Part shown: piece after piece, positions 17,128-34,106 of the stretch | Layout of the letters: each line of letters opens with the position of its first letter | Position numbering within the stretch: the stretch's first letter is position 1 | DNA from: Alteraurantiacibacter buctensis | GTDB lineage: Bacteria > Pseudomonadota > Alphaproteobacteria > Sphingomonadales > Sphingomonadaceae | NCBI RefSeq assembly: GCF_009827655.1 | Contig: NZ_WTYV01000003.1 | Coordinates: 248,001 to 312,000, forward strand | DNA length: 64,000 bases | Direction: 5' to 3' | Notes under the pieces: model-generated | Database searches by the model: none | Seen by the model: the letters and a program-made list of their open reading frames with translations, nothing else | Told to the model about the DNA's origin: nothing | Program-made: the position numbers and the translations under genes

Positions 17128-17556
17128 TTAGTTGCCCTGCGCGCGGCGGGCGGCAGCGGCCACGGCTTCCGTGGTCGGGTTGCCGAGCGACAGCTCGCGA
17201 CCGTTCGGGAAGCGGATTTCGGCAGCCGAGGCGCGGGTGTCACCGTCGCGGGCCTGGAAGGCGTCCACGATGATGTCGGTCCCAGCCGGCAGCGAGTTCC
17301 TGTTCCAGCCACGGCGCAGCAGGGCCGAGGGGGCACCGCCTTCCACGCGCCAGCGCTCGACACGGCCGTTGCGGCGCACGTCGATGTGGATCCACGAGTG
17401 CGGGTTGACCCACTCGAACATCACCACCTTGCCTTCCAGTCGGATCGGGCGGTTGCGGTCAAACTCGGTAGCGAACGAGTGGTGGGCTGCCGCCCCCACC
17501 GCCGTCACCGCGAGCACGGCGCCGATCGCGGCAGCGCTGAGCTTCTTCAGTTGCAT
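17128..17556 (-). CDS. DUF6152 family periplasmic protein
   Basis: 142 residues with a Sec signal ending AAAHHSF. The mature N-terminus HHSFATEFD, then FEWVNPHSWIHIDV, is the signature of DUF6152, a small periplasmic family repeatedly found next to quinoprotein dehydrogenases and related secreted proteins. Function is unknown. The paired histidines at the mature N-terminus could bind a metal, which is inference. It is the last gene of a three-gene set with the quinoprotein at 18487-20397. Confidence 0.8.
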   Translation of the reverse strand: MQLKKLSAAAIGAVLAVTAVGAAAHHSFATEFDRNRPIRLEGKVVMFEWVNPHSWIHIDVRRNGRVERWRVEGGAPSALLRRGWNRNSLPAGTDIIVDAFQARDGDTRASAAEIRFPNGRELSLGNPTTEAVAAAARRAQGN

Positions 17557-17620: not shown

Positions 17621-18463
17621 TCACTGTGCGGATTGGCCCTCGATTAAGTCGCCGTACAACAGCTGTTCAGAGAACGGCACGCACTTGAACTCAAGCAGTT
17701 GCGCGTTCGCGTCGACGTTGCGGTACAGCGGCATGCGAATGGTCCACGGGCGCGAATAGACGGTCGGATCCTCGATCGTCGCTTCGTAGTCCATGTGGTT
17801 GGGGCCACGCGGGGTGAAGCGTTCGATCACCGTGGCGTGGTTGGTCAGATAGTTGCCAGCGCGGTCCAGCCAGGTCACGCCTTCTTCCATCTCGCCGCCC
17901 GGCAGCTTTACCAGGCCCGGGCCCAGCGCGAGGGTGGTGACAACGAGGGTATCGCCTTCCCACTGGCCGTAGGAGGTGCCCATCCAGGTATCGATCGGCG
18001 GAATGCCGACCTCTTCCATGTGGATCACGCGGTTGGCCGAGGCATACTGATAGGCCACCAGGATGTCGTCATCGTTGCCCTGGATGATCTGGAACGGGTA
18101 GGGCATGTAGGTCGCCCGCGGGATGCCCGGCAGGTAGCAGGCGGCTTCCGGATCGTGGCGGATCACATTGGCGCGGTTGCGCTCCAGACGCTCGCGCGCT
18201 TCGGGCAGATAGGGGATTTCGCCCCCGTCCACCACGCCCAGGCCGGCCGGGATGGCGCCGATCGCGCCCACCAACCGGTCAGCCACCGGGTTCGGGCCGG
18301 CGCTGTGCGGCTCAAGGTTCCAGTTGGCGGTGTTCATCGCCTGCCAGATGCCGTTGATATTGGGCGCATCGCCGATGCGGTCCTGAGCCGAAGCGGCACC
18401 GCTGCCCAGCGCAATCAGCGCCGCTGCCGCCACTGCCGTCGTAAAACGCTTAATCCCCTGCAT
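17621..18463 (-). CDS. Periplasmic protein of an unnamed family, divergent paralogue 1 of 4
   Basis: 280 residues, Sec signal ending ASAQD. It shares with the proteins at 25862-26971, 27030-28136 and 28133-29167 the order: a cysteine before GIP/GFP, a strand region PYPFQIIQG, the motif GQWEGDTLVV, the block RFTPRGPNHMDYEATIEDP, and a second cysteine in LLEFKCVP. It is shorter and lacks the WGxPDLRG block of the others. No catalytic motif is recognised. Start ATG 18463 follows AGGAGAGG. It lies 23 bp downstream of a quinoprotein gene, so a role as partner or substrate-handling protein of that enzyme is plausible. Confidence 0.75.
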   Translation of the reverse strand: MQGIKRFTTAVAAAALIALGSGAASAQDRIGDAPNINGIWQAMNTANWNLEPHSAGPNPVADRLVGAIGAIPAGLGVVDGGEIPYLPEARERLERNRANVIRHDPEAACYLPGIPRATYMPYPFQIIQGNDDDILVAYQYASANRVIHMEEVGIPPIDTWMGTSYGQWEGDTLVVTTLALGPGLVKLPGGEMEEGVTWLDRAGNYLTNHATVIERFTPRGPNHMDYEATIEDPTVYSRPWTIRMPLYRNVDANAQLLEFKCVPFSEQLLYGDLIEGQSAQ

Positions 18464-18486
18464 AACCTCTCCTGTATGCAAAAACT

Positions 18487-20397
18487 TCACTGATCCAACG
18501 AATACACCATGATAACGCCGCTGGCGTTGATGGCGACATATTGTTTGCCGTCCTTGCCCCGATAGGTCATCGGGTTGGCATTGGCGTTGCCGTTCAGCGC
18601 GGTTTCCCACAACTGCTCGCCGGTGGCCGCGTCGAAGGCGCGGAAACGGCGGTCATTGGTGGCCCCCACGAAGACCAGGCCCCCGGCCGTGACAGTAGGA
18701 CCGGCGCTGCCGGAGTTGCCCCAGGCACGCGGGCCTTCCGGCGTATCGAAGGTGCCCAGCGGCACGGCCCACAGGATCTCGCCGGTGTTGGCGTTGACCG
18801 CGGTCAGCCTGCTCCACGGCGGCTTGTAGCACGGCGCGGTTACGCCCACCGGGCGGTTGTTGGCGTCGTACTCGCCCGACAGCGGGGCGCTGAAGCTGAA
18901 GAACGGACCCTTGCCGTCCACGCTGGCCCGGTCATACGCGGGGGAACTGGTGGCATCGAAGCTGTAGGGACGGTCACCCTCCACGCGTTCAACCCAACCG
19001 ACCAGGCTGGTGTCCTGCGCGTTGACATAGACGATGCCGGTGGTGGGATCGGCCGCCGGGCCGCCCCAGTTGACCCCGCCCGTGCCGCCGGGAAGTTGGA
19101 TGGTCGATTGCGCCGGAGCGCCCGCCGCGCGGAAATTGAACGGGGTGTAGATCCCGAAGTTCAGGTAGCCGCCGGCGCGATCCCACATGGCGTGGCAGGC
19201 CGCAGAGTGCGCCGCGTTGGTGTCTTCGGCCGAGACGATGTCGGCATAGGTCATGCTGACCCGGCTGAGCGGCGGGGTGGCCTGCGGGATCGGCTGGGTG
19301 GGGCTGTACCATTCACCCGGCACGTTGCCCTGCGGCACGGGCTTTTCCGCCACCGGCAGGACCGGCTCGCCATCTTGCGCATCAATCAGGAAGAACAGGC
19401 TGGACTTGCCGATATTGGCCAGCGCCTGGTGCCGCCCGTCCGGCCCGCGCACCGGAATCAACGGGCCCGCATGGCTCATGTCGATGTCCCACAGGTCGTG
19501 GTGCACGGTCTGGAAGTGCCACTTGTAGGCACCGGTGCGCATGTCCACGGCCACGATGGAGTTGCCGTAGAGATTGTTGCCGGGGCGGTCGCCACCGTAA
19601 TAATTGTGCGCCGGGCCGGCGATGGGCAGATAAACGGTGTTGCTGGCCGCATCCACGGTGGCCGCAAAGCCCCACATGTTGGTGCCGCCGCGCCCGGCAG
19701 AGCTGCCTGCGCCCCAGGTTTCGCTGCCCGGATGGCCGGGATCTGGCGTGGTGTCGAATTCCCACAACTTGGCTCCGGTCACCACGTCGAAGGCACGCGG
19801 GTTGCCGGCGGCCCCCTGCGGGTTCTCCAGGCTGGCCGCGCCGATCACCGCCACGTTGCCGTTGATTGTGGGCGTGCCGCCATAGGCAACGCCGACTTCA
19901 ACCTCGCCATTGGTGCCGAAGCTGGTGACCGGTTCCCCGGTGGCGGCATCCAGCGCGATCAGCTTGTTGCCCCGCATGACCAGGATGCGCGGAGCCATCC
20001 CGCGCTGGCCGGGCCAGTAGCCCACGCCGCGGCTGGAAAAGCCGCCGCCGCCCATGCCTTGCGCCTGGTCGGCGGGAGGGGTCACTTCATGAACCCAGAT
20101 TTCCGTGCCGGTAGCGGCGTCCAGCGCCAGCACGCGATTTTGCGCGGGCATGTACATCACCCCGTCCACCACCAGGGGAACTGCGGTGTTGAAGGCGCGC
20201 AGCGGATAGGTCCAGGCCTGCTGCAGGCTGGCCACGTTACTGCGGTTGATGTCGTTCAGCGGCGAATAGCGGGTGGCAGCCAGGTCACGGTTGATCGTCC
20301 GCCAGTCCCCGGCGGGCAAGGCATCCTGCGCCTGGCCGGCCCCGGTCATCACCGTTGCCAGCAGCGCAGCACCCGTCAACCATCGGCTTAATGCCAT
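18487..20397 (-). CDS. PQQ-dependent quinoprotein dehydrogenase, membrane-glucose-dehydrogenase-like propeller, soluble
   Basis: 636 residues. A signal peptide ends GAGQAQD, and the rest is an eight-bladed PQQ propeller with repeated tryptophan-docking motifs (e.g. ALDAATGTEIW). It has the mGDH-class active-site motif HHDLWDID and no N-terminal membrane helices, so it should be a soluble periplasmic enzyme. There is no haem motif and no vicinal Cys-Cys pair. It needs exported PQQ and a divalent metal and must pass electrons to a separate acceptor. It heads an operon with the unnamed-family protein and DUF6152. The divergent DUF6644 pair across 360 bp may be its membrane partner. The substrate is unknown; an alcohol or aldose-like compound is usual. 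Confidence 0.9.
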   Translation of the reverse strand: MALSRWLTGAALLATVMTGAGQAQDALPAGDWRTINRDLAATRYSPLNDINRSNVASLQQAWTYPLRAFNTAVPLVVDGVMYMPAQNRVLALDAATGTEIWVHEVTPPADQAQGMGGGGFSSRGVGYWPGQRGMAPRILVMRGNKLIALDAATGEPVTSFGTNGEVEVGVAYGGTPTINGNVAVIGAASLENPQGAAGNPRAFDVVTGAKLWEFDTTPDPGHPGSETWGAGSSAGRGGTNMWGFAATVDAASNTVYLPIAGPAHNYYGGDRPGNNLYGNSIVAVDMRTGAYKWHFQTVHHDLWDIDMSHAGPLIPVRGPDGRHQALANIGKSSLFFLIDAQDGEPVLPVAEKPVPQGNVPGEWYSPTQPIPQATPPLSRVSMTYADIVSAEDTNAAHSAACHAMWDRAGGYLNFGIYTPFNFRAAGAPAQSTIQLPGGTGGVNWGGPAADPTTGIVYVNAQDTSLVGWVERVEGDRPYSFDATSSPAYDRASVDGKGPFFSFSAPLSGEYDANNRPVGVTAPCYKPPWSRLTAVNANTGEILWAVPLGTFDTPEGPRAWGNSGSAGPTVTAGGLVFVGATNDRRFRAFDAATGEQLWETALNGNANANPMTYRGKDGKQYVAINASGVIMVYSLDQ

Positions 20398-20757
20398 AAC
20401 GCCTCTTCTCCCGCCTGTTCAGACCAGCTCCCGTAGCAGGTGGGCGACCCTGGGATCGCCGCTGCTCGTTGATTCTGTCCTAAAGGCGCAACCCAACTTT
20501 GACAATGGCCTGTCGCCTGTTCTAGCAGCCCTCGCACAGAGTCTGCATTTGAACTTGTCCGGCATCCGTTGCGAAATGCGCGGGGCAAAGTCGAGGGTGA
20601 CTTTGTGATAAATTGTCGCGCTTGGTCGCATTTGCTCCCTGCCTCTTGGCGGGGACCTGTAGAGTCGCTAGCGCGTTTGCGCTGGATCAAGGTTGCCGGC
20701 TGTCATGTCCGCAAGGACTGTGGCGGACCGTAGAGTCAAAATCTGGGGGAGCCCACC
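20398..20757. other. Divergent intergenic region with near-direct repeat
   Basis: 360 bp separate the quinoprotein (-) from the DUF6644 pair (+), and no credible gene lies within. A near-direct repeat is visible: GGACCTGTAGAGTC at 20653-20666 and GGACCGTAGAGTC at 20725-20737, spaced 72 bp, close to the + strand start. GGGGGAG precedes the ATG at 20758. Promoters for both directions must lie here, but no convincing -35/-10 pair stands out. Confidence 0.5.
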
Positions 20758-21294
20758 ATGTTCGATTTGCTGTTCAATATAACGGATTGGTTGAGGAACA
20801 CGTTTCTCCTCGACCTCGCCTTCTGGATCACGGAGACGCCGCTGAGCCTCTTCATGGTCGAGAATTTCTGGAACGTGCCGCTGGCCCAGGTGGTGCACAT
20901 CCTGGGTATCGGTGCAACCTTCGGGGCCACGCTGATGCTGTCGCTGCGGGTGCTGGGCAAGGCTGGCACGCACCAGACGCTGACCGCCCAGGCCGACCGT
21001 TATATCAGTTGGACCTGGTGGGGCCTGCTGGTGATCGTGATCAGCGGCCTGCTGATGATCACTGCCGAGCCGATCCGCAACATGGTCAACGCCGTGTTCT
21101 GGATCAAGATGGTGGCCCTGCTGCTGGTGGTGCTGCTGTCGATCGGCTTCCAGAAGAAGGTTCGCGCTGCCGGTGCTTCGGGCGCGGTGGACGGCCAGGT
21201 CACCGGCGGGATGAAGGGCAGCGCCTGGCTGATCCTCTTCCTGTGGGCTCTGATCATGCTGTGCGGTCGCTGGATCGCCTACGTGCCGGTGTAA
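20758..21294 (+). CDS. DUF6644-type integral membrane protein
   Basis: 178 residues with about four or five transmembrane helices. A conserved histidine sits early in a helix (AQVVHILGIGATFG) and a lysine in FWIKMVALLL. This arrangement recalls small cytochrome-b-like or CopD-like four-helix membrane proteins, and I assign it to DUF6644 on that pattern with moderate certainty. The next gene encodes a paralogue in tandem 15 bp downstream. Because it is divergent from a soluble quinoprotein, a membrane electron acceptor is a testable possibility. Confidence 0.7.
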   Translation: MFDLLFNITDWLRNTFLLDLAFWITETPLSLFMVENFWNVPLAQVVHILGIGATFGATLMLSLRVLGKAGTHQTLTAQADRYISWTWWGLLVIVISGLLMITAEPIRNMVNAVFWIKMVALLLVVLLSIGFQKKVRAAGASGAVDGQVTGGMKGSAWLILFLWALIMLCGRWIAYVPV

Positions 21295-21309
21295 GGGGGA
21301 GTAATCGCA

Positions 21310-21819
21310 ATGTATCCGCAACCGACCAATATCTGGGAATCGATCGAGTACTCCTCGCTCGGTATTTCCATCGCCGAAAGCCTGTGGGCTTTCCCCATGA
21401 TCGAGACCATCCACGTGATCGCGCTGGTCACCGTGCTGGGCACCCTGCTGGTCATGGACCTGCGCATGCTGGGGTGGGCCAGCACCGCAGTGCCGATCCG
21501 CAAGGTGTCGGAAGACACGCTGAAGTGGACCTGGATGGCCTTCGTCGTGGCCGCCATTACCGGCACCCTGCTGTGGATCAGCAAGACCAGCTCCTACATG
21601 ATCAACCCCTACTTCTTGACGAAGATGGGCCTGATGGCAGTGGCTGGCCTGAACATGCTGTTCTTCCACTTTGTCACCTACAAGACGGTGGACCAATGGG
21701 ACACGGCCGCAAGCCCGCCGACTGCGGTGAAGCTGTCGGCAGTGCTGTCGCTGGTACTGTGGATGGTGATCGTGTTCTGCGGCCGTGCCATCGGCTTCAC
21801 GCTGGGGATCTACTACTGA
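21310..21819 (+). CDS. DUF6644-type integral membrane protein, paralogue of the preceding gene
   Basis: 169 residues, four or five transmembrane helices. It matches its neighbour block by block: ETIHVIALVTVLGTLL aligns with the VVHILGIG helix, and YFLTKMGLMAVAG with the FWIKM helix; an additional histidine occurs in FFHFVTYKT. The tandem pair probably forms a heterodimer. A strong terminator follows at 21849. Function unknown; see the previous entry for the electron-transfer hypothesis. Confidence 0.7.
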   Translation: MYPQPTNIWESIEYSSLGISIAESLWAFPMIETIHVIALVTVLGTLLVMDLRMLGWASTAVPIRKVSEDTLKWTWMAFVVAAITGTLLWISKTSSYMINPYFLTKMGLMAVAGLNMLFFHFVTYKTVDQWDTAASPPTAVKLSAVLSLVLWMVIVFCGRAIGFTLGIYY

Positions 21820-21848
21820 TCCCTGCGTCGTTCGCAGCCTGAAACAGG

Positions 21849-21884
21849 AAAGGGCCGCTTCCCCAGCCGGGAAGCGGCCCTTTT
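21849..21884. terminator. Strong bidirectional intrinsic terminator
   Basis: A perfect 15-bp stem (AAAGGGCCGCTTCCC and its complement) with a 5-nt loop is followed by TTTTGTTT on the + strand and flanked by A/T on the other. It lies between the convergent DUF6644 gene and the cytochrome-quinoprotein gene and can serve both. Confidence 0.92.
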
Positions 21885-21899
21885 GTTTGCCTCCGGATT

Positions 21900-23996
21900 T
21901 TACTGTCCGCCGTCGAGCGCGAAGACGGTGACGCTGGCCGAGTTGACTTCGGGCACCGGCAGTTCGGGCGTGAAGTTGGGCAGGCCGAAAGCCAGCGGAT
22001 TGCCCATGCCGGTAACCACCGCGACATACTGACGGCCGTTCACCGAGTAGGTGATGGGGGAGGCGTTGGGCACGCCGCTAAGCCCTGTGCGCCACACCTG
22101 CCGACCGGTCGCCTGGTCGAAGGCCATGAACTCCCGGTCCATTGCCCCGCTGAACAGCAGGCCGCCTGCCGTGGCCAGCATCCCGGCGTTGTACGGCGCA
22201 CGGCGGCGGTGCTCCCAGCGGACGGTGCCGGTGGCCATGTCCATCGCCTGCAGGATGCCGAAGTTGCCATCGCTGTCGGCCGGAGCGGAATAGTAGATGT
22301 CCACGCCGGTCGACAGGAAGCCGCCGTCGGCGCGCGGGCGCAGCTCCATGCAGGTATCGCGATAGTTCATGAACAGCGTGTCGGTGGCATCGTCGAAGGC
22401 GCCCGGGCTCCAGTTGCGGCCGCCGCCCGCGTGCGGGCACATGAACACGGCATCACGGTCCCGCCCCGGGACCAGCGCCGGGTCCACCTGCTTTCGGCCC
22501 GTCACCGGGTCGATCGCGGTGATGAAGGTCTGGTAGCCCATGTCGGCCGTGGTGATGTAGCGCCCGGTAGCGGCGTCGAGGGTGTCGAGCAGCCCTTCCT
22601 TGCCGCCGGTCATCACCACGTGGCGGCCGTTGACCTCGCCCAGCGTGCGCTCGAACACCCAGTCCAGGTCATACTGGTCGTTAGGCATGTGCTGGAAGTA
22701 CCACACCAGCTCGCCAGTGCGCGGGCGGAAAGCCAGGGTGCTGTTGGTGAACAGCCCGTCGTTGTTCTGTCCCGGCACCAAGTCGCGCAGGGCTGCCGTG
22801 TCGTAAGTCTGCGCCACGCCCCACAGGGCAAGGCCCGTCTGCGGATCGAAGCTGCCGCTGGTCCACACCGATCCGCCGCGCCGCTGGTTGTCGGGCAGGC
22901 CGTTCCACGTGTTACCGCCCGGCTCATCGGCATGGGCGACGGTGTTGAAGCTCCACAGGTGCTGGCCACTGGCGGCGTCGAAGGCGGCGATGAAGGCCCC
23001 TTCGTCGGCCTGGGTGGCGAGGCCGATCATCACCGCGCCATCGGCCACCAGCGTGCCGCCATTCAGGCGCAGGCCGCCGCGTCCCTGCGTGGGGATCGCC
23101 ACGTCCCACACCGGGCGGCCAGTGCGCGCATCCAGCGCCATCACGTGCAGGTCGCTGGTGGCCAGGATCACCCTGTCATCCCAAAGCGATATGGTCTTCT
23201 TGCCCAGCGGCATGGTGCCTTCAGGCAATTGCCGGCGATAGCGCCAGATCTGCCGGCCGGTGGCGGCATCGAAGGCGAACACCTCGTCGCCGAAGGCGTG
23301 GACATACATCACCCCATCGCGCACCAGCGGCTCGGCCAGCGTGGGGCCGGCGGGCAGGGCCTGCGCCCAGGCCACGGCGAGGCGGCTGACATTCTGGGTG
23401 GTCACCTGCGCCAGCGGCGAATAGCCCTGGCCAAGCTGGCTGCGCCGCCAGGCCACCCAGTCCTCGGGCGCGGGATTGACCAGCTCGTCCTGGGTCACCG
23501 GGGTATAGCCGGCGAAAGGATCCGGTATGGTCGGGGCAGCGGGGAAGGGGTAGCGGCTGGATACGCCGGGCAGGCCCAGGCCGCTGCCTTCTTCGCCCTG
23601 GCCGCGCGGAGGCAGGGGAATCTCGGCCGTTGCCAGTGCCACATCCCCGGCAAAACCGTTCTCGGCCAGGATCAGCGCAGCCAGCGCATTATACTGCGCC
23701 GCCGACAGCCGCCCTCCGCCGCCCGGCGGCATCGAGGTGGCGATATAATTGACCAGTGCGCTGGCGGGCTGGCCGCCCCAGCGGGCAAGGAAGGCCGGGC
23801 CCTTTACACCGGTGGCGAACTGGCCACCGGTCAGGTCCGCCCCGTGGCAGGCCGCGCAATTGGCGGCGAACAGCGCCCGGCCGGTGCTGATCTGGTCGGC
23901 AAACGCCTCATCGCTCGCCTGGGCCGAAGCGCCTGCCGCGCCCAGCGCTGCAAGGGCCACGGCCGAGGCCAGCAGGCCGCGTGTCACATGTGCCAA
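21900..23996 (-). CDS. Quinohaemoprotein dehydrogenase: N-terminal cytochrome c fused to a PQQ propeller
   Basis: About 698 residues. A signal peptide ends ASAQA, a cytochrome c domain follows with CAACH (about residue 45) and a Met in ATSMPPGG, then a PQQ propeller. Most quinohaemoproteins carry the haem domain at the C-terminus, so this order is reversed. The catalytic region reads NDQYDLDWVFE; the second Asp two residues after the catalytic one resembles the lanthanide-type signature of XoxF and PedH. The proposed start is TTG at 23996 because GGGGAGG lies 8 nt upstream; no ATG suits. It is an exported alcohol dehydrogenase-like enzyme able to pass electrons through its own haem. Confidence 0.88.
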   Translation of the reverse strand: MAHVTRGLLASAVALAALGAAGASAQASDEAFADQISTGRALFAANCAACHGADLTGGQFATGVKGPAFLARWGGQPASALVNYIATSMPPGGGGRLSAAQYNALAALILAENGFAGDVALATAEIPLPPRGQGEEGSGLGLPGVSSRYPFPAAPTIPDPFAGYTPVTQDELVNPAPEDWVAWRRSQLGQGYSPLAQVTTQNVSRLAVAWAQALPAGPTLAEPLVRDGVMYVHAFGDEVFAFDAATGRQIWRYRRQLPEGTMPLGKKTISLWDDRVILATSDLHVMALDARTGRPVWDVAIPTQGRGGLRLNGGTLVADGAVMIGLATQADEGAFIAAFDAASGQHLWSFNTVAHADEPGGNTWNGLPDNQRRGGSVWTSGSFDPQTGLALWGVAQTYDTAALRDLVPGQNNDGLFTNSTLAFRPRTGELVWYFQHMPNDQYDLDWVFERTLGEVNGRHVVMTGGKEGLLDTLDAATGRYITTADMGYQTFITAIDPVTGRKQVDPALVPGRDRDAVFMCPHAGGGRNWSPGAFDDATDTLFMNYRDTCMELRPRADGGFLSTGVDIYYSAPADSDGNFGILQAMDMATGTVRWEHRRRAPYNAGMLATAGGLLFSGAMDREFMAFDQATGRQVWRTGLSGVPNASPITYSVNGRQYVAVVTGMGNPLAFGLPNFTPELPVPEVNSASVTVFALDGGQ

Positions 23997-24075
23997 GATT
24001 GTATCCTCCCCATTCTCTCCGGCATCCTTATGGCGCAAGCACCCGGTGCCGGAAAGAGGGGGCAGGCGGCTCGCT

Positions 24076-25740
24076 TCAGTTGCCGGTAGGCAGGCCCAGC
24101 GGAGTGGCCACGCGCTGGTTGAACTGCGCGGTGTAGAGCGCGTCCTGTGCCTCGGTCAGCCACGGGCCCACGCCGGAGCCATCACCGTCCAGCCGCATCA
24201 CCTCGCGCCGCGACAGTTCGGTGATCGAAGGCCAGTGGGGCAGGCCGGGGCCATTGGGATTGCCGGTGGCAGCAAAATTCACCCAGTACTGCGACACCTG
24301 GCTGGCAAAGGCTTCCTCGGCCGGGTTGCCGCACATCAGCGTGACCGAAGAGCCGCCCGGGAATGTCCGCGGGGCACAAAGGTTGCCGAAGGCATAGGGG
24401 ATTTCGCCCGTGTGCGCGGCACCCAGGTTGGGCTTGTCGGGATCGTACAGGGGATCGTGGGTGAAGAAATACTGGTAGGCGTTGCGGCCCAGCCGCGCCT
24501 GGCCCTCGGCGTACTGGCGCATGTGCCAGGTCATCGCATCACTGAACGGGCGCACGGCCTGGGCGGCGGCCTCGGCATCGCTGGCGGCGGGATAGGCCGC
24601 GCGGCCCAGTTCCACGTTGCTTTCACCCCAGCGCTGGGCTTCGCCCGAAGTCCAGCCTTCCAGCGTTACCGGCGGGCCGAAACCGGCGGTGAAGCTGCCT
24701 TCGTCCTCGTTCGATCCGGCGAGCACGTCCCACGGGTTCTGCCGCCCTTCGGCCACAACGCGGGTCACGTCCTCGGGAATCACGTGGCCGTCCACGATCA
24801 TCCCCGCACCGCGCAGCTTCTGGTGGATTTCGGCGGCAGGCAGGGCGCGCAAAGCCGCGAGGCTGGTGGTGCCGAACTGCGTTTGCGCCGCGGTCATCAC
24901 CGCCTGCTCGGCCCGTTCGCGCGTGTTCATCGGCGCAATGCCAAGGCCCATCCAGGCCCCCGACTGCGGAATCGCGCGGGTGACCAGATCGCGCGCCTCG
25001 GGTGCGCCCACCAGGCCGCCGGCAATGGCTGCGCCGGCGCTTTCGCCAAAGATCGTCACGCGGGACGGGTCGCCACCAAAGGCGCGGATGTTTTCCTGCA
25101 CCCAGCGCAGTGCGGCAATGGTATCGCCGATTGCCTGGTTGCCCGATGCGCCGTGCGGGCTGGCGGCGGTCAGTTCGGGGTGGCTGAAGAAGCCCAGCGC
25201 GCCCACGCGGTAATTGATGGTCACCAGCACCACGCCCTTGGCCGCCAGCTGGTTGCCCTGGCTGAATGGCGCGGAGCCGCCACCTTCGTTGTAGGCCCCG
25301 CCATAGATCCACACCATCACCGGCAGGTTCTCGGCGCCGGTCGTCGCCGGGGTCCAGACGTTGAGATACAGGCAATCTTCCGAAATGCCGGGGCTGTCGG
25401 GCATGTCGGTGGCGGAGTTGACGGGGAACCGCTGAGGGGCGGGGTTCTGCACGCAGTTGTCACCCCACGTGTCGGCCATGCGGACACCGTCCCAGTTGAC
25501 AGGCGGTCGGGGCTGTTCCCAGCGCAGGTCACCGACCGGCGGGGCGGCGAAGGGCAGGCCCTTGAACACCGTGATCCCCGGCAGATCACCTGGCACGCCG
25601 CGCACCAGGCCCTGTGCCGTGCGGACGGGGCTGCTGGCGATAGTGTCCTGCGCCTGCGCCGGGAGGTCGGTGGTGGCACAGGCTGTTGCGGTGGCCAGCA
25701 GCAGGGCGGCAAGGGCGGGCTGGCGAAGAGTGAAGGTCAT
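24076..25740 (-). CDS. Type-B carboxylesterase, exported
   Basis: 554 residues. The N-terminus (LLLATATACATT) is a signal peptide with a possible lipobox cysteine. The carboxylesterase B fold has VRGVPG and FKGLPFAAPPVGDLR, the oxyanion motif YGGAYNEGG, nucleophile FGESAGA (about residue 235), and the EDCLYLNVW block. These enzymes hydrolyse aryl and alkyl esters. Being exported and beside several periplasmic dehydrogenases, it could release alcohols or acids that those enzymes then oxidise. It lies 121 bp after the three-paralogue operon on the same strand. Confidence 0.9.
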   Translation of the reverse strand: MTFTLRQPALAALLLATATACATTDLPAQAQDTIASSPVRTAQGLVRGVPGDLPGITVFKGLPFAAPPVGDLRWEQPRPPVNWDGVRMADTWGDNCVQNPAPQRFPVNSATDMPDSPGISEDCLYLNVWTPATTGAENLPVMVWIYGGAYNEGGGSAPFSQGNQLAAKGVVLVTINYRVGALGFFSHPELTAASPHGASGNQAIGDTIAALRWVQENIRAFGGDPSRVTIFGESAGAAIAGGLVGAPEARDLVTRAIPQSGAWMGLGIAPMNTRERAEQAVMTAAQTQFGTTSLAALRALPAAEIHQKLRGAGMIVDGHVIPEDVTRVVAEGRQNPWDVLAGSNEDEGSFTAGFGPPVTLEGWTSGEAQRWGESNVELGRAAYPAASDAEAAAQAVRPFSDAMTWHMRQYAEGQARLGRNAYQYFFTHDPLYDPDKPNLGAAHTGEIPYAFGNLCAPRTFPGGSSVTLMCGNPAEEAFASQVSQYWVNFAATGNPNGPGLPHWPSITELSRREVMRLDGDGSGVGPWLTEAQDALYTAQFNQRVATPLGLPTGN

Positions 25741-25861
25741 CTTGTGGGCATCCCCGTGCCGACCGCGTCTGGCAGCGGTCCGGTCATGTTAAGCAATGGC
25801 AGGCGCAGGGAGAGGGGCAGCGACCGTACCGGCCAGGCCCACCCCTCCCGGTTCCCGTCGC

Positions 25862-26971
25862 CTATTCCACGCCGCCGCGTTCGCCCGAAAGCTGCACGCC
25901 GGCGCGGCTGGCATTGATGTAGTTGCGGATCTGCACGTTGCCTTCATGGCAGGCGTATTCGAAGAAGGCGTATTCCTCGTTGCGCGTCCAGTCGAGACGG
26001 GCGGTCCACGGGGCGGTGAACACTTCCGGATCGGTGTAGGTCACTTCGTATACGATCGAGTCCGGCCCCGTCATGGTCAGGCGCTCGACAGAGCGAGCCT
26101 GCTTGCTGGTGGGGATAGTGTTGAACGGCGGCACGCCCAGCGTGGCCATGTTCAGTGGCGAGCCGTTGCGGGCAAAGGCATCGCGGGTGGCGCTGTCACC
26201 GCTCTTGATGTTGGTGGTCTCGATCACCAGGGTGTTGCCTTCCCACCAGCCGATCGACTGGCCCATCCAGGCTTCCACCGCAGCAGGCCAGCGGCGTGCA
26301 TCTGCCGCAGCCTTGTTGGCCACGATCGGGATCACGCGGGCATCGTGGATCATCTCAAGGTTGATCACCACGTAGCCCGGGCTCTGCTTGACCTGGATGC
26401 CGTTGTTGTAGCGGAAGGGGAACATGCTGGCGGGGAAGCCGCGGCTGACGCAGCGATCCCAGCTATCGAATTCGGTCACCCAGTTGAACTGGGTGTTGGG
26501 CGTCCACGAGCTGCGGCCGGCGCTGTAGAGGGCCTGGGCCTGCGGCGTCAGCGGGGGAAGCTGACCGTTGGCGGGCGAGACCACCAGGTTGGTGCGGCGG
26601 CCGGAGCTGTCCGATTCCACCCAGTGGCCCATGCCGATGGTGCCACTTTCGTCTTCGGCAGCATAGGCCTGGTCGGAGCGGTTGGCCTGTGCGGCGCGGG
26701 CGGCATATTCCTCGTCGGTCAGCCAGAAGCGGTCACCGTATTGCGCCGGGCGGTTCATCGGCAGGCTGGCAATATTGTCGATCGGCCACATGCCACGCAG
26801 GTCCGGATCGCCCCAGGCGGTGCGGCCCGGCTGATAGTCGGTCGATACCGGGGGCATCACGGTCAGGTCTTCGGGCACGGCCTGGGCGGCAACCGGAGCG
26901 CTGGCGGCGGTCAAGGCCAGGGCGGCGGCAGAAAGCGCCATCAGCGACTTGGTAATGGTGAACTTGGTCAT
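25862..26971 (-). CDS. Periplasmic protein of an unnamed family, paralogue 2 of 4
   Basis: 369 residues with a Sec signal ending VAAQA. Blocks shared with the next two genes: WGDPDLRGMWPID, NRPAQYGDRFW, GHWVE, a Cys in DRCVSRGFPASMFPF, YNNGIQ, GWWEGNTLVIETTN, and a C-terminal FEYACHEGNVQIRNYI with a second conserved Cys. No enzyme signature is recognised. Start ATG 26971 follows AGGAGAG. It is the last of three tandem paralogues downstream of a lipoprotein quinoprotein, so it is probably part of that complex or pathway; a disulfide between the two conserved cysteines is likely in the periplasm. Confidence 0.78.
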   Translation of the reverse strand: MTKFTITKSLMALSAAALALTAASAPVAAQAVPEDLTVMPPVSTDYQPGRTAWGDPDLRGMWPIDNIASLPMNRPAQYGDRFWLTDEEYAARAAQANRSDQAYAAEDESGTIGMGHWVESDSSGRRTNLVVSPANGQLPPLTPQAQALYSAGRSSWTPNTQFNWVTEFDSWDRCVSRGFPASMFPFRYNNGIQVKQSPGYVVINLEMIHDARVIPIVANKAAADARRWPAAVEAWMGQSIGWWEGNTLVIETTNIKSGDSATRDAFARNGSPLNMATLGVPPFNTIPTSKQARSVERLTMTGPDSIVYEVTYTDPEVFTAPWTARLDWTRNEEYAFFEYACHEGNVQIRNYINASRAGVQLSGERGGVE

Positions 26972-27029
26972 TGCGGTTTTCTCTCCTGAAAGTCCCGGAC
27001 GCAGGCCAGCGGCGCGCGCCCGCAAAAGC

Positions 27030-28136
27030 CTAGTCGCGCCGCCTGAGGCCACCGGCGGCAGGGTCCATCGCCGGGGGCGGGCCGGTGTTGGGATCGACCG
27101 GTTCCAGCATGCGGCCGCGGCGGTATTCGTCCTCGCGCCGCACGCGGTCGGATGTGATGTAGCCGCGCAGCTGCACGTTGCCTTCGTGGCAGGCGTATTC
27201 GAAAATCTCGTAGCTGTCGTCGCGCGTCCAGTCGACGCGCAGGGTGAACGGCGCGGTCCAGACGATGGGATCCTCGTAGGTCATCTCGTAGGTGATGGTG
27301 TTCGGCCCCACCATCGAGAAGCGCTCCACCACGCGGGCCTGTTCGCTGACCGGTGTGGTGTTGTTGATCGGCACGCCGCCGGTGCCGTTGCTGAACACCG
27401 ATGCGCCGGTCTTGAGGTTGGTGGTTTCCACCTCCAGCGTGTTGTGATCGATCCAGCGGCCACGGCTGGAGCCGTACCAGCCGGTAACGGCAGCGGGCCA
27501 GTGGCCGCCTTCACCCACCGGGATCACGCGCATGCCCAGCATCTCGATCTGGATGGCCACCGTGCCGGGCGACTGGAAGATGCGGATGCCGTTGTTGTAG
27601 CGAGCCGGATACATGGCGGCGGGGAAGCCGCGCGTGATGCACCGGTCATAGGTGTCGAAATCGTCTGTCCAGTCGTAAGTCTGGCCGATGATCCAGCTCG
27701 ACCGCATCAGTGCCGAGCGGCGGCGGCCCTCGTCCGTCCAGGCGGGCAGGCGGCCGTTGGCAGGCGAGACTACCATCGAGGTGCGGGTGACGCCGGCGGT
27801 GTATTCGATCCAGTGGCCAAGACCGATGGTCGCGTCCTCTTCCTCGGCCTTGTAGGCTTCCTCCAGCGTTTCCACGCGGCCCTGTTCGGCGGCAATCTCC
27901 TCCGGGGTTTTCCAGAAACGGTCACCGAAACGGTCGGGGCGGTTGACCGGCAGGTCGGCAATGTCGTTGATCGGCCAAGTGCCGCGCAGGTCCGGATCGC
28001 CCCAGGCCGTGGTGGCCGGATGATAATCGTCCGACACCGGCGGCATCGTTGTCAGGTCGGCAGGGACCTGGCTCTGCGCCAGCGCCGGTACGGCGAACAG
28101 AGCGGCGGAGCAGGCGAGTGCGGCGATCAGTTTCAT
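27030..28136 (-). CDS. Periplasmic protein of an unnamed family, paralogue 3 of 4
   Basis: 368 residues, Sec signal ending PALAQ. It is strongly similar to the flanking paralogues: WGDPDLRGTWPIND, NRPDRFGDRFW, IGLGHWIEY, a Cys in DRCITRGFPAAMYP, RYNNGIRIFQSPG, and YEIFEYACHEGNVQL near the C-terminus. GRWIDHNTLEVETTN replaces the GxWEG motif. The C-terminal tail after residue about 330 is longer and proline/arginine-rich. Start ATG 28136 overlaps the stop of the upstream paralogue (ATGA), indicating coupled translation. Function unknown. Confidence 0.78.
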   Translation of the reverse strand: MKLIAALACSAALFAVPALAQSQVPADLTTMPPVSDDYHPATTAWGDPDLRGTWPINDIADLPVNRPDRFGDRFWKTPEEIAAEQGRVETLEEAYKAEEEDATIGLGHWIEYTAGVTRTSMVVSPANGRLPAWTDEGRRRSALMRSSWIIGQTYDWTDDFDTYDRCITRGFPAAMYPARYNNGIRIFQSPGTVAIQIEMLGMRVIPVGEGGHWPAAVTGWYGSSRGRWIDHNTLEVETTNLKTGASVFSNGTGGVPINNTTPVSEQARVVERFSMVGPNTITYEMTYEDPIVWTAPFTLRVDWTRDDSYEIFEYACHEGNVQLRGYITSDRVRREDEYRRGRMLEPVDPNTGPPPAMDPAAGGLRRRD

Positions 28137-29167
28137 TGGCTGGTTCCCCCGGCAGCCGCCGCGCGCTCGGCCCGGCTGGCATTTATGTAGTTTCGAATCT
28201 GCACGTTGCCTTCGTGGCAGGCATATTCGAAGATGCCATAATCGTCGTCGCGCTGCCACTCCAGGCGGGCAGACCACGGCTGCTGGAACACCACCGGGTC
28301 TTCCCAGGTGAATTCGTAGATGATCTGGTCAGGCCCCACCATGTGGAACCATTCGGTCATCCGGGCGGAGGCGCTGACCGGCGTCTTGTTCTCCGGCGGG
28401 GAGCCGGTGGTGCCGATGTTGGTGGCGCTGGGGCCGGGCAGGAAGTTGGTGGTGGTCACCTTTAGCGTGTTGTGATCCACCCATTCGCCCCGGCTTTCAC
28501 CCAGCCACTGGCCGATCTGCGCCGGAATGCCCGGGCGGCCATCGGTATAGATCACGCGCGTTTCGTGGACCATTTCCATCTGCAGTGCGAACACGCCGGG
28601 GGCCTGGAACACGCGCATCCCGTTGTTGTACATGAAGGGGAACATGCTCGCCGGCAGACCACGCGTGATGCAACGGTCCCAACTGTCGAAATCGGCCGGG
28701 CTGTCAAACTGCTGGCCGCGCGCCCAGGTGCTGCGCATGGCGGCGGACAGGCGCTCGCCTTCCGCCGTGTAGGCCGGCAGGCGGCCATCGGCGGGAGCGG
28801 TGATCCAGCTTGTACGGCGGTTGGCGGCGGCCACTTCGGCCCAGTGGCCAATACCCATGGTGCCGTTGGTGTCCTCGTTCTGGTAACGCTGTTCCAGCGC
28901 CTCCACCGCCTCAGCGCGGGCGGCGTATTCCTCCTGCGTCAGCAGTTGCCGGTTGCCGTGTTCGGGCGCGCGTTGCAGCGGGGTCCGCCCGTTCAGGTGG
29001 TCGATAGGCCAGCCGCCGCGCAGGTCAGGCTCGCCCCATGGCGTTTGCGACGGGCGATAGTCGTCCGAAGCGGGCGGCAGCCGGGTCAGGTCTTCCTCCT
29101 GCGCCACGGCGTTGCCGCTGGCCAAGGCCAGCACCAGCGTCGCGGCGGAGAGGAGCGGGCTACGCAT
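28133..29167 (-). CDS. Periplasmic protein of an unnamed family, paralogue 4 of 4
   Basis: 344 residues, Sec signal ending NAVAQ. It shares WGEPDLRGGWPIDH, MGIGHWAEV, a Cys in DRCITRGLPASMFP, MYNNGMRVFQAPG, GEWVDHNTLKVTTTN and FEYACHEGNVQIRNYI with the two genes downstream. Its ATG overlaps the stop of the quinoprotein gene and its stop overlaps the next start, so the four genes 31143 to 25862 form one operon. Tandem duplication followed by divergence is evident; separate substrates or subunits of one assembly are both possible. Confidence 0.78.
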   Translation of the reverse strand: MRSPLLSAATLVLALASGNAVAQEEDLTRLPPASDDYRPSQTPWGEPDLRGGWPIDHLNGRTPLQRAPEHGNRQLLTQEEYAARAEAVEALEQRYQNEDTNGTMGIGHWAEVAAANRRTSWITAPADGRLPAYTAEGERLSAAMRSTWARGQQFDSPADFDSWDRCITRGLPASMFPFMYNNGMRVFQAPGVFALQMEMVHETRVIYTDGRPGIPAQIGQWLGESRGEWVDHNTLKVTTTNFLPGPSATNIGTTGSPPENKTPVSASARMTEWFHMVGPDQIIYEFTWEDPVVFQQPWSARLEWQRDDDYGIFEYACHEGNVQIRNYINASRAERAAAAGGTSQ

Positions 29168-31143
29168 CAGTTCCCCCGTGCGGGATTGGGTGCCGGCAGG
29201 GCGAAGGTGATGTAGCGGCCGGGGCCCGGATCGGGCATGTCCAGACCGCCCAGGAAGTGGCCTTCGCCGCCTACGGGGATGGTCACGTACTGGCGGCCAT
29301 TGACCATGTAGGTGGCGGGCACGCCTTCAGTGGCAGCATCAAGCTGGTATTCCCACAGCACGCGGCCGGTATCGGCATCGCGGGCGCGGAACATCCGGTC
29401 GCTGGCGGTGCCCACGAACAGCAGGCCCCCGGCGGTGGCGACGGGGCCGCCGCGCGGGGTCTGCGCGCCGGTATCGTTGATGCCCTGCTCCATCAGTTGC
29501 ATCATCCCGCCATTGGGGATCTGATAGAGCTGCTCGCCGGTGTTCATGTCATAAGCGGTGATCGTGGAGAACGGCGGCTTCATCGCGCCCATGCCGTTCG
29601 ATTGCAGCAGGAAGTTCACCGGCCAGCGATAGACCCGGTCCACATCGTCATGGTTGGGCATGGCAGCCAGCGATTCCGGCCGGTTGTCGGTGTTCAGCTT
29701 CAGCAGGATGGGCAGCTCGCGGCTGACTACGTAGAGGCGCCCGCGCACCGGATCGGCCGCCACTTCGCCCCAGTTGGCACCGCCGTTGTGGCCGGGCATC
29801 GACACCGAACCGCGCAGGGAGGGCGGGGTGAAGATGCCCTCGTTGCGCCACACCTCGGTCAGGTTGCGGCGCAGTTCGGCCTGGTCTGCCTCTGGCAGGT
29901 AGGGGTTGATGTCATCCACGGTGAAGGTCTGGCGCATGAAGGGCTGCGGCCAGGTGGGGAAGGGCTGTGTGGGGCTGGCCACCTCGCCCGGAATGTCGCT
30001 GGCGGGAACCGGCCGTTCCTCGATCGGCCACACCGGCTCGCCCGTCAGGCGTTGGAAGGCGAACACGAAGCCGTGCTTGGTCACCTGCACCACGATCGGG
30101 ATGCGCTGGCCATCCTTGGTGATGGTCATCAGCTTGGGGGCCACCGGCAGGTCGAAATCCCACAGGTCATGGTGCACGATCTGGTAGTGCCACAGCCGCT
30201 GGCCGGTGTTGGCGTCCAGCGCGATCAGCGAGTTGCCGAACAGGTTGTCGCCTTCGCGGTTGCCGCCGTAGAAATCGTAACGCGGGGTGCCGGTGGGGAT
30301 GAAGACGATGCCGTTCTCCACGTCCACGGTCGATTCCGACCAGTTGTGGACGCCGCCATAGCGGTGATGGTCGGGGCCGGCTTCCCAGGTGTCATAGCCG
30401 AATTCGCCTTCACGTGGGACGACGTTGAAGGTCCACTTCAACTGGCCGGTGATCACGTCATAGGCCTGGATGTTGGCCGGGGCCGAGGCATAGTCATAGG
30501 CACCCGCCGGCAGCGACATGACGATGGTGTTCTGGTAGATGCGGCCGGGGTTGTCCGTCATCATCGGGCTGGCCGGGATCACCGCATCGCGCGGCAGGGC
30601 ATCGCGCAAGTCCACCCCGCCATTGGTGCCGAAGGTGCTGATCACCTGCCCGTTGGTGGCATCAATTGCCCGCAGCATGCCGTTGTTGAGCACCATGAGG
30701 CGCTGCTGGCTGCCATCGGCGCTCTGCCAGTAGTTGATGCCGCGCGCGCCAATCCGGCCTTCCAGCGCGGTAACCCAGAGCTGGCGACCAGTGGCCGGAT
30801 CAAGCGCGGCGATCTGGTTGGCGCCGGTGATGACGTACATCCGTCCGCCGCCCAGCGTGGGGTTGAAGCGCGGCGGCTGACCGGGGCCGGTCTCGAACGT
30901 CCAGGCGACCTGGAGCTGGTTCACGTTGCTGCGGTTGATCTGGTCTAGCGAAGAATACTGGCTGGAATCCGCCCCGCTGCCGCTGGCATCCCAGGTGGCA
31001 TAGTCCGGGGCCATCCCGGTGGCACGGGAAGGTCCGTCGGTGGCGGAAGCGGTGGTGCCGCCCGTGGTCGCGCAGGCCGCCAGCGCCACAGCAAGCGCCG
31101 TGGTTGCCGCCAGGCGCGCAGTGCGCCGTGCCGAAATGAACAT
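29167..31143 (-). CDS. PQQ-dependent quinoprotein dehydrogenase, lipoprotein form
   Basis: 658 residues. The signal peptide ends in the lipobox LAAC (about residue 24) with Ala at +2, predicting an outer-membrane-sorted lipoprotein, after which an ~30-residue Gly/Ser/Thr-rich linker leads to the propeller. The propeller has repeats such as ALDPATGRQLW, the mGDH-class motif HHDLWDFD and NGGANWGE. There is no haem and no vicinal cysteine pair. It leads an operon with three unnamed-family paralogues. Lipid anchoring of a quinoprotein is unusual and would fix it at the inner face of the outer membrane, near substrate entry. Confidence 0.88.
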   Translation of the reverse strand: MFISARRTARLAATTALAVALAACATTGGTTASATDGPSRATGMAPDYATWDASGSGADSSQYSSLDQINRSNVNQLQVAWTFETGPGQPPRFNPTLGGGRMYVITGANQIAALDPATGRQLWVTALEGRIGARGINYWQSADGSQQRLMVLNNGMLRAIDATNGQVISTFGTNGGVDLRDALPRDAVIPASPMMTDNPGRIYQNTIVMSLPAGAYDYASAPANIQAYDVITGQLKWTFNVVPREGEFGYDTWEAGPDHHRYGGVHNWSESTVDVENGIVFIPTGTPRYDFYGGNREGDNLFGNSLIALDANTGQRLWHYQIVHHDLWDFDLPVAPKLMTITKDGQRIPIVVQVTKHGFVFAFQRLTGEPVWPIEERPVPASDIPGEVASPTQPFPTWPQPFMRQTFTVDDINPYLPEADQAELRRNLTEVWRNEGIFTPPSLRGSVSMPGHNGGANWGEVAADPVRGRLYVVSRELPILLKLNTDNRPESLAAMPNHDDVDRVYRWPVNFLLQSNGMGAMKPPFSTITAYDMNTGEQLYQIPNGGMMQLMEQGINDTGAQTPRGGPVATAGGLLFVGTASDRMFRARDADTGRVLWEYQLDAATEGVPATYMVNGRQYVTIPVGGEGHFLGGLDMPDPGPGRYITFALPAPNPARGN

Positions 31144-31285: not shown

Positions 31286-31954
31286 TCATTCGGCGGCGCT
31301 GTCCGGCTGCTGCATCTGGTGGCCTGCGGCGCTGCCTTCAACCGTATTCTCCACGCCTTCCAACGGGCGATCCACCTCACCCATGGAGGTGAACAGGGTG
31401 GAGGTGGTCATGGCGCCGCTGGCTTCCAGCCGCAAGGTGACTGTGTCCAGACTGCGGTTCTGCCAGTACCAGCCGTGGATGCCGGTAAACGGCGCAGTAT
31501 AGATGCCCTGCATGGCCTGGGCTTCGGACACGCCATAGCTCTCGGTCATCTCGGTGCCGCCGTCGAAGGGGTGGCCATGCATGTCATAGTGCAGGGGCGC
31601 GCTGCCTTGCCAGTTGAATGCCATCTTGCCGCCCTGCGGGATGGTGTACTTGAACTCGATCCCTTCGAACGGTGGCAGTTCATATTCCCATACGTCGGTG
31701 GCACCGGGCTGGGCGGCGGGGGCGGCATCGGACAGTTCCAGCACCGTCTCGCGCTCCATCCGGGCCATCCCGCGCTGCTGCTCCTCGTTCACCGGGTCGG
31801 CGATCTCCACCAGACCCAGCGCTTTGCCAACGCCGGTGGGATCCCACCCGGTCTCTGCCGGCAGGACGAACATCACGGCCCCGGCAGCCACGGCAACAAG
31901 GGCGATGCCGCCGATCAGCAGCGGCTTCTTCGAACGGGGAGCAGTCTGGGTCAT
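31286..31954 (-). CDS. Membrane-anchored periplasmic protein, unknown function
   Basis: 222 residues. One N-terminal transmembrane helix after a basic cytoplasmic tail (APRSKKPLLIGG) leads to a periplasmic domain with a histidine-rich strand, LHYDMHGHPFDGG, and IHGWYWQNRS. It ends in a polar tail with HQMQQP. Proteins of this kind are often labelled only as transmembrane anchor. The ATG overlaps the stop of the HupE-like gene. The HxxxHGHP-like cluster could bind a metal, which would fit the metal-permease-like neighbour; this is inference. Confidence 0.65.
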   Translation of the reverse strand: MTQTAPRSKKPLLIGGIALVAVAAGAVMFVLPAETGWDPTGVGKALGLVEIADPVNEEQQRGMARMERETVLELSDAAPAAQPGATDVWEYELPPFEGIEFKYTIPQGGKMAFNWQGSAPLHYDMHGHPFDGGTEMTESYGVSEAQAMQGIYTAPFTGIHGWYWQNRSLDTVTLRLEASGAMTTSTLFTSMGEVDRPLEGVENTVEGSAAGHQMQQPDSAAE

Positions 31955-32643
31955 GCGGCAAGGTATCCCTGTATCTGGATGGTGGTGAGCCACAGGCCAA
32001 CGGCAATCAGCAGCACGTTGGCGGCAAAGGCATAACGGGTGAAGCTGGGCCGGTCACGCCACAGCGAAAACAGGTAGACCACGAAAGAGAGCACGATCAC
32101 CTGCCCCAGTTCCACGCCCACGTTGAAAGCGATGAGGTTGGCCAGCAGGCCATCGCGCGACATCTCCAGGTCCTGCACCTTGCTGGCCAGGCCCAGCCCG
32201 TGAAACAAGCCGAAGACCAGGACGACCACCTTGGTGTTGATGGCCAGGCCCAGCTTCTGGAAGCCGCCCACGTTCTCGAACCCCTTGTACACCACTGACA
32301 GGCCGATGATCGCATCGATGAGGTAGCTGTTGACACCAAAGCCCAGCAGCACGCCCGCCAGCAGGGTGGTGGAATGGCCCAGGGTAAACAGCGAGACGTA
32401 GAGCACCACGTCTTTCAGGCGGCGCAGGAAGAACACCACGCCGACAAGGAAGGCGATATGATCGTAGCCCGTCACCATGTGCTTGGCGCCAAGGTACAGG
32501 AACTGCGGGATGGCGGGGCCGCTGATGGATGACACGAACGCCTTGTCGCTCTGCGCCACGTCATGGGCCAGGGCGGCCACCGGCACCAACAGCGCCAGCA
32601 CGGCGAGGGTCAGCAGGCGGCTGCTATCAAGGCGCCCGGTCAC
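31951..32643 (-). CDS. HupE/UreJ-family membrane protein
   Basis: 230 residues, about six or seven transmembrane helices. HupE-type motifs are visible: KHMVTGYDHIAFL (about residue 50), FTLGHSTTLL (about 83) and LFGLFHGLGLAS-like (about 140), whose histidines line a metal path in NiCoT-like permeases. An N-terminal signal-like helix ends ALAHDV, leaving a His near the mature N-terminus. Start GTG 32643 overlaps the previous stop (GTGA). No hydrogenase or urease genes are present, so the metal, if any, may serve other envelope enzymes. Confidence 0.82.
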   Translation of the reverse strand: MTGRLDSSRLLTLAVLALLVPVAALAHDVAQSDKAFVSSISGPAIPQFLYLGAKHMVTGYDHIAFLVGVVFFLRRLKDVVLYVSLFTLGHSTTLLAGVLLGFGVNSYLIDAIIGLSVVYKGFENVGGFQKLGLAINTKVVVLVFGLFHGLGLASKVQDLEMSRDGLLANLIAFNVGVELGQVIVLSFVVYLFSLWRDRPSFTRYAFAANVLLIAVGLWLTTIQIQGYLAA

Positions 32644-33716: not shown

Positions 33717-34106
33717 ATGACTGCAATTGTCGGCAAGTGGCACAAGCTGGGCCTTGCTACTCTGGGCGCCGCCTCGCTGGCGATCCCGCTGGCCGTGGCG
33801 CTGGCGCAAGGGCCGGAGTTCCAGGAGCAGGCGACCGAAGCAACCGGAGAGGCGCTGACTGCCGAGCAGGTGGCCCAGGGCCGCAGCCTGTTCAACTCCT
33901 GGTCTTGCGGCGCCTGCCACGTGCTGGGCGATGCCAATGCCCACGGCCAGATCGGCCCGGCGCTGGATGGCAATGCCACGATCGACAAGGCTTTCGTGGT
34001 CGGTCGCATCACCAACGGCCAGGGCGCAATGCCTGGCTTTGGCGGCCAGCTTTCTGATGAAGAGATCGACCTGCTTGCCGCCTACATCGTGCAGGTGAAG
34101 CAGTAA
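33717..34106 (+). CDS. Soluble class I cytochrome c
   Basis: 129 residues. The signal peptide ends VALAQ (about residue 31). Haem motif CGACH lies at about residue 65 and the sixth ligand is the Met of GAMPGFGGQLSDEEI. This is a typical small periplasmic electron carrier, also seen as a stand-alone partner of quinoprotein alcohol dehydrogenases. ATG 33717 was chosen with GGAAGGG upstream, although the frame is open earlier. It is divergent from the lipoprotein cytochrome, and a 212-bp spacer holds a TTGACA at 33584 without a convincing -10. Confidence 0.9.
   Translation: MTAIVGKWHKLGLATLGAASLAIPLAVALAQGPEFQEQATEATGEALTAEQVAQGRSLFNSWSCGACHVLGDANAHGQIGPALDGNATIDKAFVVGRITNGQGAMPGFGGQLSDEEIDLLAAYIVQVKQ

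Follow-up and report, generated by a model that had tools for sequence, protein, structure and literature searches.

In a window of 64,000 nucleotides from the alphaproteobacterium Alteraurantiacibacter buctensis (contig NZ_WTYV01000003.1, positions 248,001 to 312,000; coordinates below count from the first letter of this stretch), four genes encode members of one family of secreted proteins. An earlier reading of the same DNA, hereafter the original prediction, had noticed these proteins beside quinoproteins and had taken that association to be fixed. Here, we find that the steady partner of the family across phyla is DUF6152, absent from that reading, and not a quinoprotein, and that the quinoprotein link is a lineage-specific recruitment in the sphingomonad branch. 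The family is real, unnamed, large and partnered, and it probably assists periplasmic catabolism of known kinds.

The family and its pairing with DUF6152

Open reading frames for all four proteins lie on the minus strand at the positions originally reported (17621, 25862, 27030 and 28133). A codon model placed their starts at 18463, 26971, 28136 and 29167, from which the chains begin like signal peptides, and the starts previously given for the 17621, 25862 and 27030 frames were probably too far upstream. Three members are of a long type and stand in tandem (28133–29167 first, 27030–28136 second, 25862–26971 third), while the fourth, of a short type, adjoins DUF6152 (17621–18463). The short member is 27–29% identical to the tandem three in alignment, and BLASTP aligned its C-terminal half to 28133 (E 1e-11) and to 25862 (E 1e-13); these values and the tree described below rule out a chance resemblance among the four. 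In all of them, as had been claimed, both cysteines and a GxW..xTL block show little or no variation. The third shared feature, a YNNG/PF strand region, stood in part: YNNG occurs in the tandem three only, and 17621 carries a PF/IIQG version instead.

We then aligned 244 long, short and distant members of the family, using the numbering of 28133. The two cysteines, C166 and C317, are present in 99% each, and 230 of the 244 sequences have exactly two cysteines past the first 24 residues. The GxW..xTL block likewise extends to these relatives (W229 98%, L235 97%), and R204 (98%), G223 (within 97–100%), E272 (99%) and D290 (99%) are equally well kept. A further GxW lies early in the domain (G51 95%, W53 82%).

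The description of the family as unnamed held, and its members are secreted. No family reached its cut-off when all four window members were searched against Pfam and NCBIfam or seven distant members against Pfam, the window members matched none of the VOC models in Pfam, and a PHROGs search with 28133 returned nothing at E ≤ 0.1; a known family under another name was rejected, as these searches met no curated cut-off. Sub-threshold candidates were set aside, namely PF06737 (18.2 bits against a cut-off of 27) and NF052454 (13.1 against 700) on window members, and PF05757, PF04952 and PF16101 on distant ones.

The host genome holds 17 family matches, six near full length (four of them in the window) and eleven covering mainly the C-terminal half. 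In a scan of named genomes, of which the best 80 of 550 confirmed stretches serve as a sample of taxa, record titles placed the family in Erythrobacter-like and other sphingomonads, Gammaproteobacteria (including OM182) and many Acidobacteria. Three surveys, run with profile A1 for the genus and A3 for the other two, found it in 16 of 41 genomes centred on the genus, in 7 of 99 from the phylum of a Bryobacterales genome, and in 20 of 159 from the host's own taxonomic family. In these surveys only a limited set of candidates was scored in each genome (14 of up to 40 in one case), which makes the copy numbers minimum values. Neither the family, which occurs in many copies in some genomes of environmental Gammaproteobacteria and Acidobacteriota, nor its small partner DUF6152 has an assigned function in the libraries and literature searched. 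Genes in distant genomes were called with the codon model trained on the window; loci L102–L169 were fetched for holding the family, and neighbour counts there are conditional on it. Some records from different assemblies are near-identical (L142 and L162; L128, L145 and L155), and the counts are not all independent.

The DUF6152 gene of the window (PF19649, E 1.2e-32) lies at 17128–17556 on the minus strand. The protein occurs in the same 16 of 41 genomes as the family in the genus-centred survey, in the same 7 of 99 in the phylum survey, and in all 20 family-bearing genomes among the 159 of the taxonomic family, which makes 39 of 39 distinct family-bearing genomes when the surveys are pooled (four genomes recur). 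It is also present, in 1 to 91 copies, in all 13 genomes to which family-bearing loci led (G044 recurs here). The pairing is local as well. Around non-sphingomonad family members, a radial count gave 32 DUF6152 genes within 1.5 kb and none in 538 kb further out, and every one of 53 DUF6152 calls in these loci adjoins a family member (52 distinct genes, L130 and L175 sharing one). The same was found in regions picked on DUF6152 positions alone, mostly high-scoring ones (L172–L183), where 18 of 18 DUF6152 calls adjoin a family gene. In the host genome, 10 of 12 DUF6152 matches lie within 1 kb of a family member and 11 within 2.3 kb; counted from the other side, 10 of 17 family members lie within 1 kb of DUF6152 and 11 within 2.3 kb. 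Homology, signal peptides, conservation, pairing and the fusions described below are established at the level of sequence.

Family genes, there annotated as 'hypothetical protein', also adjoin DUF6152 on plasmids of Novosphingobium humi, Croceibacterium atlanticum and Sphingobium sp. TomTYG65, and on two of the three a pair of DUF6644 genes is close by. On pTomTYG65a (L194, 3682–7483), two genes of the family and two of DUF6152 stand in alternation and are followed by the DUF6644 pair; genes for a monooxygenase, a peroxiredoxin and a TonB receptor lie next to this cluster. The largest numbers of DUF6152 copies were 91 in a 3.6-Mb genome (G046, behind L130), 88 in G048 and 57 in G044. In the library searched, no paper contains the names DUF6152 or DUF6644.

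Predicted folds of the two proteins

A structural model of 28133 (AlphaFold2, 95 sequences; pLDDT 94.8, pTM 0.91) places a long, partly helical insert between strand 1 and strand 2 and a C-terminal helix at the end of the chain. Among the best 50 matches listed by Foldseek and VIA-align, which leave room for other folds, the hits were mainly barrels of the FABP, CRABP, CRBP and NanoLuc kinds. NanoLuc and FABP5 aligned with Z 7.6–7.7 over 114–118 residues at 2.9–3.2 Å, and the best Foldseek E-value was 7e-4; these matches are weak, and by the tool's own guidance a barrel match at the Z 7.7 level can mean a common arrangement only. A PDB sequence search with a 95-row profile found no relative (best E 0.45 and 0.77). 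GxW at the first strand is a signature of lipocalins, and FABPs carry a helical lid where the insert of the family lies. The resemblance to FABPs and lipocalins is coherent but weak, and the family protein is probably a barrel with one closing disulfide. The original prediction had offered a lyase or a binding protein; the predicted barrel fits the latter better.

All 36 aligned DUF6152 sequences carry His-His straight after a signal-peptidase-like site; in the window protein it follows Ala-Ala-Ala. Among the 35 sequences with a leader, 34 have Ala and one has Gly at position −1, and position −3 is Ala, Val, Ser or Gly in 31 and Leu in four. Of 23 DUF6152 gene calls, four begin only after the His-His and are uninformative on it. 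A third invariant histidine lies within an NPH motif. The structural model (pLDDT 89.1) is a predicted OB-fold, with best matches to PriB and SSB (Z up to 8.3), and the periplasmic haem chaperone CcmE is also among its Foldseek matches; a DUF6152 profile gave no match to PDB sequences at E ≤ 1. Since the mature chain is predicted to begin with His-His, DUF6152 probably holds a metal ion, most likely copper, by analogy with other proteins that begin with histidine.

Quinoproteins, the conserved cluster and fusions

The window agrees with the original description in that the three tandem members stand behind a lipoprotein quinoprotein (29167–31143) and the short member behind a soluble one (18487–20352). 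In sphingomonad loci quinoproteins do peak beside the family, with nine matches or 0.139 per kb within 1.5 kb versus 0.034–0.048 per kb further out. Two same-genus members outside the cluster are also near a quinoprotein (L086, gap 1270 bases; L083 at 16948, gap 1745 bases). Outside sphingomonads, however, quinoproteins show a flat profile around the family and no such peak (0.040, 0.035, 0.038 and 0.032 per kb with distance), and a quinoprotein directly adjoins 13 of 201 family genes. On the flat profile, we reject the quinoprotein as a fixed partner outside sphingomonads. In the host genome, of the 17 members just the four in the window have a quinoprotein within the 13–19 kb stretches read around them.

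The genus survey counted 13–27 PF01011 matches in the 16 family-bearing genomes versus 0–7 in the 25 without the family, and 10–12 were scored in each of the seven family-bearing genomes of the phylum survey, so that all 23 family-bearing genomes of these two surveys are quinoprotein-rich; yet 45 of the 99 genomes of the phylum survey (45 of its 92 family-less ones) carry PF01011 without the family. No PqqC was found above cut-off in the 41 genomes, with sub-threshold matches in three genomes of other genera (PqqC was the only pqq gene searched), and pyrroloquinoline quinone (PQQ) is therefore probably imported or scavenged. These apparent scavengers hold up to 27 PF01011 matches per genome. 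A literature search found nothing on an expansion of PQQ-dependent dehydrogenase paralogs in Acidobacteria or on 'acido-empty-quinoprotein', and one combining quinoprotein, lipocalin and periplasm returned nothing related, as judged from its listing. Of the papers listed for Erythrobacter and Altererythrobacter, none contained the word quinoprotein.

Around the four family members, the minus strand of the window encodes the soluble quinoprotein and the lipoprotein quinoprotein (both full-length PF01011 matches, the latter with a lipobox-like LAAC seen by eye), a cytochrome c–quinoprotein fusion (21900–23987), a carboxylesterase (PF00135, 24076–25740) and a further quinoprotein (35148–37142). 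Two DUF6644 membrane proteins (20758–21294 and 21310–21819) and a cytochrome c (33717–34106) lie on the plus strand. The lipoprotein quinoprotein gene overlaps the first tandem gene by 1 base and the first overlaps the second by 4 bases; the three therefore probably form one operon. Also on the minus strand are a cytochrome c'-like protein (33001–33504; PF01322, 26.6 bits against a cut-off of 26.5), a secreted VOC (glyoxalase-fold) protein (34168–35151), and a HupE_UreJ_2 permease-like protein (31951–32643) whose predicted mature N-terminus, AxA-HD by eye, is also His. A protein without a Pfam match (31286–31954, minus strand) has a His-rich stretch, HYDMHGHP, and is kept in the cluster; it stands beside the lipoprotein quinoprotein in related loci too, in a sequence cluster of 13 members. 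Further along lies a glutathione S-transferase (43572–44489, Pfam GST match), which may resemble the bacterial lignin beta-etherases LigE and LigP.

We compared this arrangement with 15 loci, taken from the 15 further genomes of the genus survey in which the family occurs. Fourteen share the order quinoprotein, tandem family members, carboxylesterase, cytochrome c quinoprotein, DUF6644 pair, and in 13 of these the short member and DUF6152 are also present (the remaining locus, L084, ends at a contig end). The number of tandem copies ranges from 2 to 5. In a 121-row tree (a quick tree with SH-aLRT support only), each tandem copy of the window groups with positional orthologues of other species. 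Because of these orthologues, the copies appear to be old and kept apart, and a recent tandem amplification is unsupported. Regarding the link to quinoproteins, the original prediction thus stands for sphingomonads, in both the local peak and the conserved cluster, and fails elsewhere.

The exceptional fifteenth locus (L083, genome G005) contains a fusion. Here, the VOC protein that is free-standing at window position 34168 is joined to a long family domain in a single gene (3935–5869), 60% identical to the window protein over the VOC part and 39 bases from a quinoprotein. Similar fusions occur outside sphingomonads, where 16 of 203 family gene calls exceed 450 amino acids (15 distinct). Nine long calls were scanned; seven carry an N-terminal VOC domain, one a C-terminal metallo-beta-lactamase and one two family domains. 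A VOC profile brought the VOC-fused calls to 14 (13 distinct, L130 and L175 again being one gene), not counting L083, and DUF6152 adjoins 8 of the 14. One clade of the tree (SH-aLRT 100) consists of these fusions in 11 of its 12 rows. The joining of one domain to enzymes of different types suggests that it has an accessory role and holds a ligand.

Other neighbours are varied. Outside sphingomonads we scanned 115 of 301 eligible neighbours against Pfam and saw TonB receptors, DUF1592-type proteins, ankyrin proteins, metallo-beta-lactamases, amidohydrolases and lactonases, none in more than 4 of the 115; a single dominant neighbouring enzyme was therefore not found in this set. Among ten genes beside other members in the genus, three match no Pfam family; the rest include an RPE65-type oxygenase, an FMO-like monooxygenase, an alpha/beta hydrolase, a pirin, a cytochrome c-bearing quinoprotein, and CcmB.

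Proposed function and relation to known systems

We tentatively propose, at a little short of an even chance, that the secreted calycin-like barrel and DUF6152 together form a ligand-binding accessory module for periplasmic oxidative catabolism. The family protein would be a calycin (FABP/lipocalin-like) barrel with a large helical insert between its first and second strands. In the periplasm, it would bind a small hydrophobic or aromatic molecule and present it to the oxidising machinery encoded alongside, with DUF6152 supplying or carrying a metal. In sphingomonads this machinery would comprise quinoprotein dehydrogenases with cytochrome c as electron acceptor, the carboxylesterase and the VOC protein, and elsewhere it would include the fused VOC or metallo-beta-lactamase domains. 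Both folds are predicted, and we infer the disulfide, ligand binding, metal binding and hand-over. The old tandem paralogues have kept their order, so that each probably acts on its own substrate or at its own step. A more novel reading is quite improbable: the pair would be a new periplasmic copper redox system that oxidises or oxygenates hydrophobic natural products, in which an OB-fold copper protein with an N-terminal His-His and a substrate-holding disulfide barrel, present in dozens of copies in some genomes, plug into quinoprotein, VOC or metallo-beta-lactamase chemistry.

Several observations weigh against the accessory module. The pairing is lopsided in that every DUF6152 called in the non-sphingomonad loci neighbours the family, and the family is often without DUF6152 next door. 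DUF6152 directly adjoins 66 of 201 non-sphingomonad family genes and lies within two genes of 101; it is within 3 kb of 29 of the 64 family matches that have 3 kb of sequence on both sides, and G132 and G149 each hold at least 22 family matches but four DUF6152. Conversely, 13 of the 159 genomes have a lone weak DUF6152 match (35–46 bits) and no family match, although a family member may have been missed among the limited candidates scored. Neighbours outside sphingomonads are mixed, with the commonest Pfam families in 4 of 115 each at most. No listed chain reached Z 8 against the barrel (best Z 7.7), and the TM-score to the query is about 0.24; the DUF6152 model had no Foldseek match at E ≤ 0.001. 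Finally, the conservation of R204, E272 and D290 at 98–99% over 244 members could equally mark a catalytic site. A divergent DUF6152-like gene in the host genome (G000:C20:171681, 38 bits) has no family match near it, and it and those of the 13 genomes may form a separate branch.

The same three residues speak for the family being an enzyme (an isomerase, hydratase, lyase or hydrolase) that acts on neighbouring oxidation products through Arg, Glu and Asp, with DUF6152 as activator or second subunit. Calycin-type folds with enzymatic activity exist, among them AttH/CrtC-like proteins and allene oxide cyclase, and the VOC fusion could be a two-step enzyme. The diversity of fusion partners and neighbours suits an accessory domain better, and we consider an enzyme unlikely, if credible. 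A dedicated partner of quinoproteins, acting in PQQ, calcium or lanthanide loading or in electron transfer, would account for the operon conserved in 14 of 15 same-genus loci, the L086 and L083 members outside it, the richness in PF01011 of 23 of 23 family-bearing genomes and the apparent scavenging of PQQ in 41 genomes without PqqC above cut-off. The flat density outside sphingomonads, where 13 of 201 family genes directly adjoin a quinoprotein, the 4 of 17 host members near one and the 45 of 99 genomes with PF01011 alone make such a role decidedly improbable.

The pair might instead handle metal, capturing or delivering copper with the barrel as carrier or regulator, and the quinoproteins and catabolic genes would then be bystanders. 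The N-terminal His-His of DUF6152 speaks for this, as does the HupE_UreJ_2 protein in the window cluster, though it is too short to contain the copper-binding Ang-1 domain reported in PMC12537917. The 91 DUF6152 copies of a 3.6-Mb genome are more than metal acquisition should need, and the conserved barrel residues are not typical copper ligands; we rate pure metal handling as fairly improbable.

For the accessory module, the fusions tie the family to periplasmic oxidative catabolism, and the pairing joins two proteins of unassigned function into a single unit with a concrete, testable prediction, that mature DUF6152 begins with His-His and binds metal. If the proposal is true, it would name a widespread layer in the degradation of dissolved organic matter and natural products, one that is annotated 'hypothetical protein' today.

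The family resembles FABP, CRABP and lipocalins in its predicted barrel, the insert after the first strand, the GxW near the domain start and its best structural matches, and it differs from FABPs and lipocalins in lacking PDB sequence similarity, in an insert of ~130 residues, in its two conserved cysteines and in its DUF6152 partner. VOC (glyoxalase/extradiol dioxygenase) proteins are fused N-terminally to family domains, yet form a separate domain. The PF19649 protein of the window belongs to DUF6152, the partner of the barrel family and not the family itself. PMC12537917 uses an N-terminal histidine as a search key for new metalloproteins and reports copper binding through it for the Ang-1 domain attached to HupE_UreJ_2-type proteins; its main text does not contain the name DUF6152. 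DUF6152 shares with such N-terminal-His metalloproteins (LPMO, CopC, Ang-1, DUF6702) a histidine in first place after predicted cleavage, in 36 of 36 sequences, whereas Ang-1 is described in that paper as an Ig-like beta-sandwich and DUF6152 is a predicted OB-fold.

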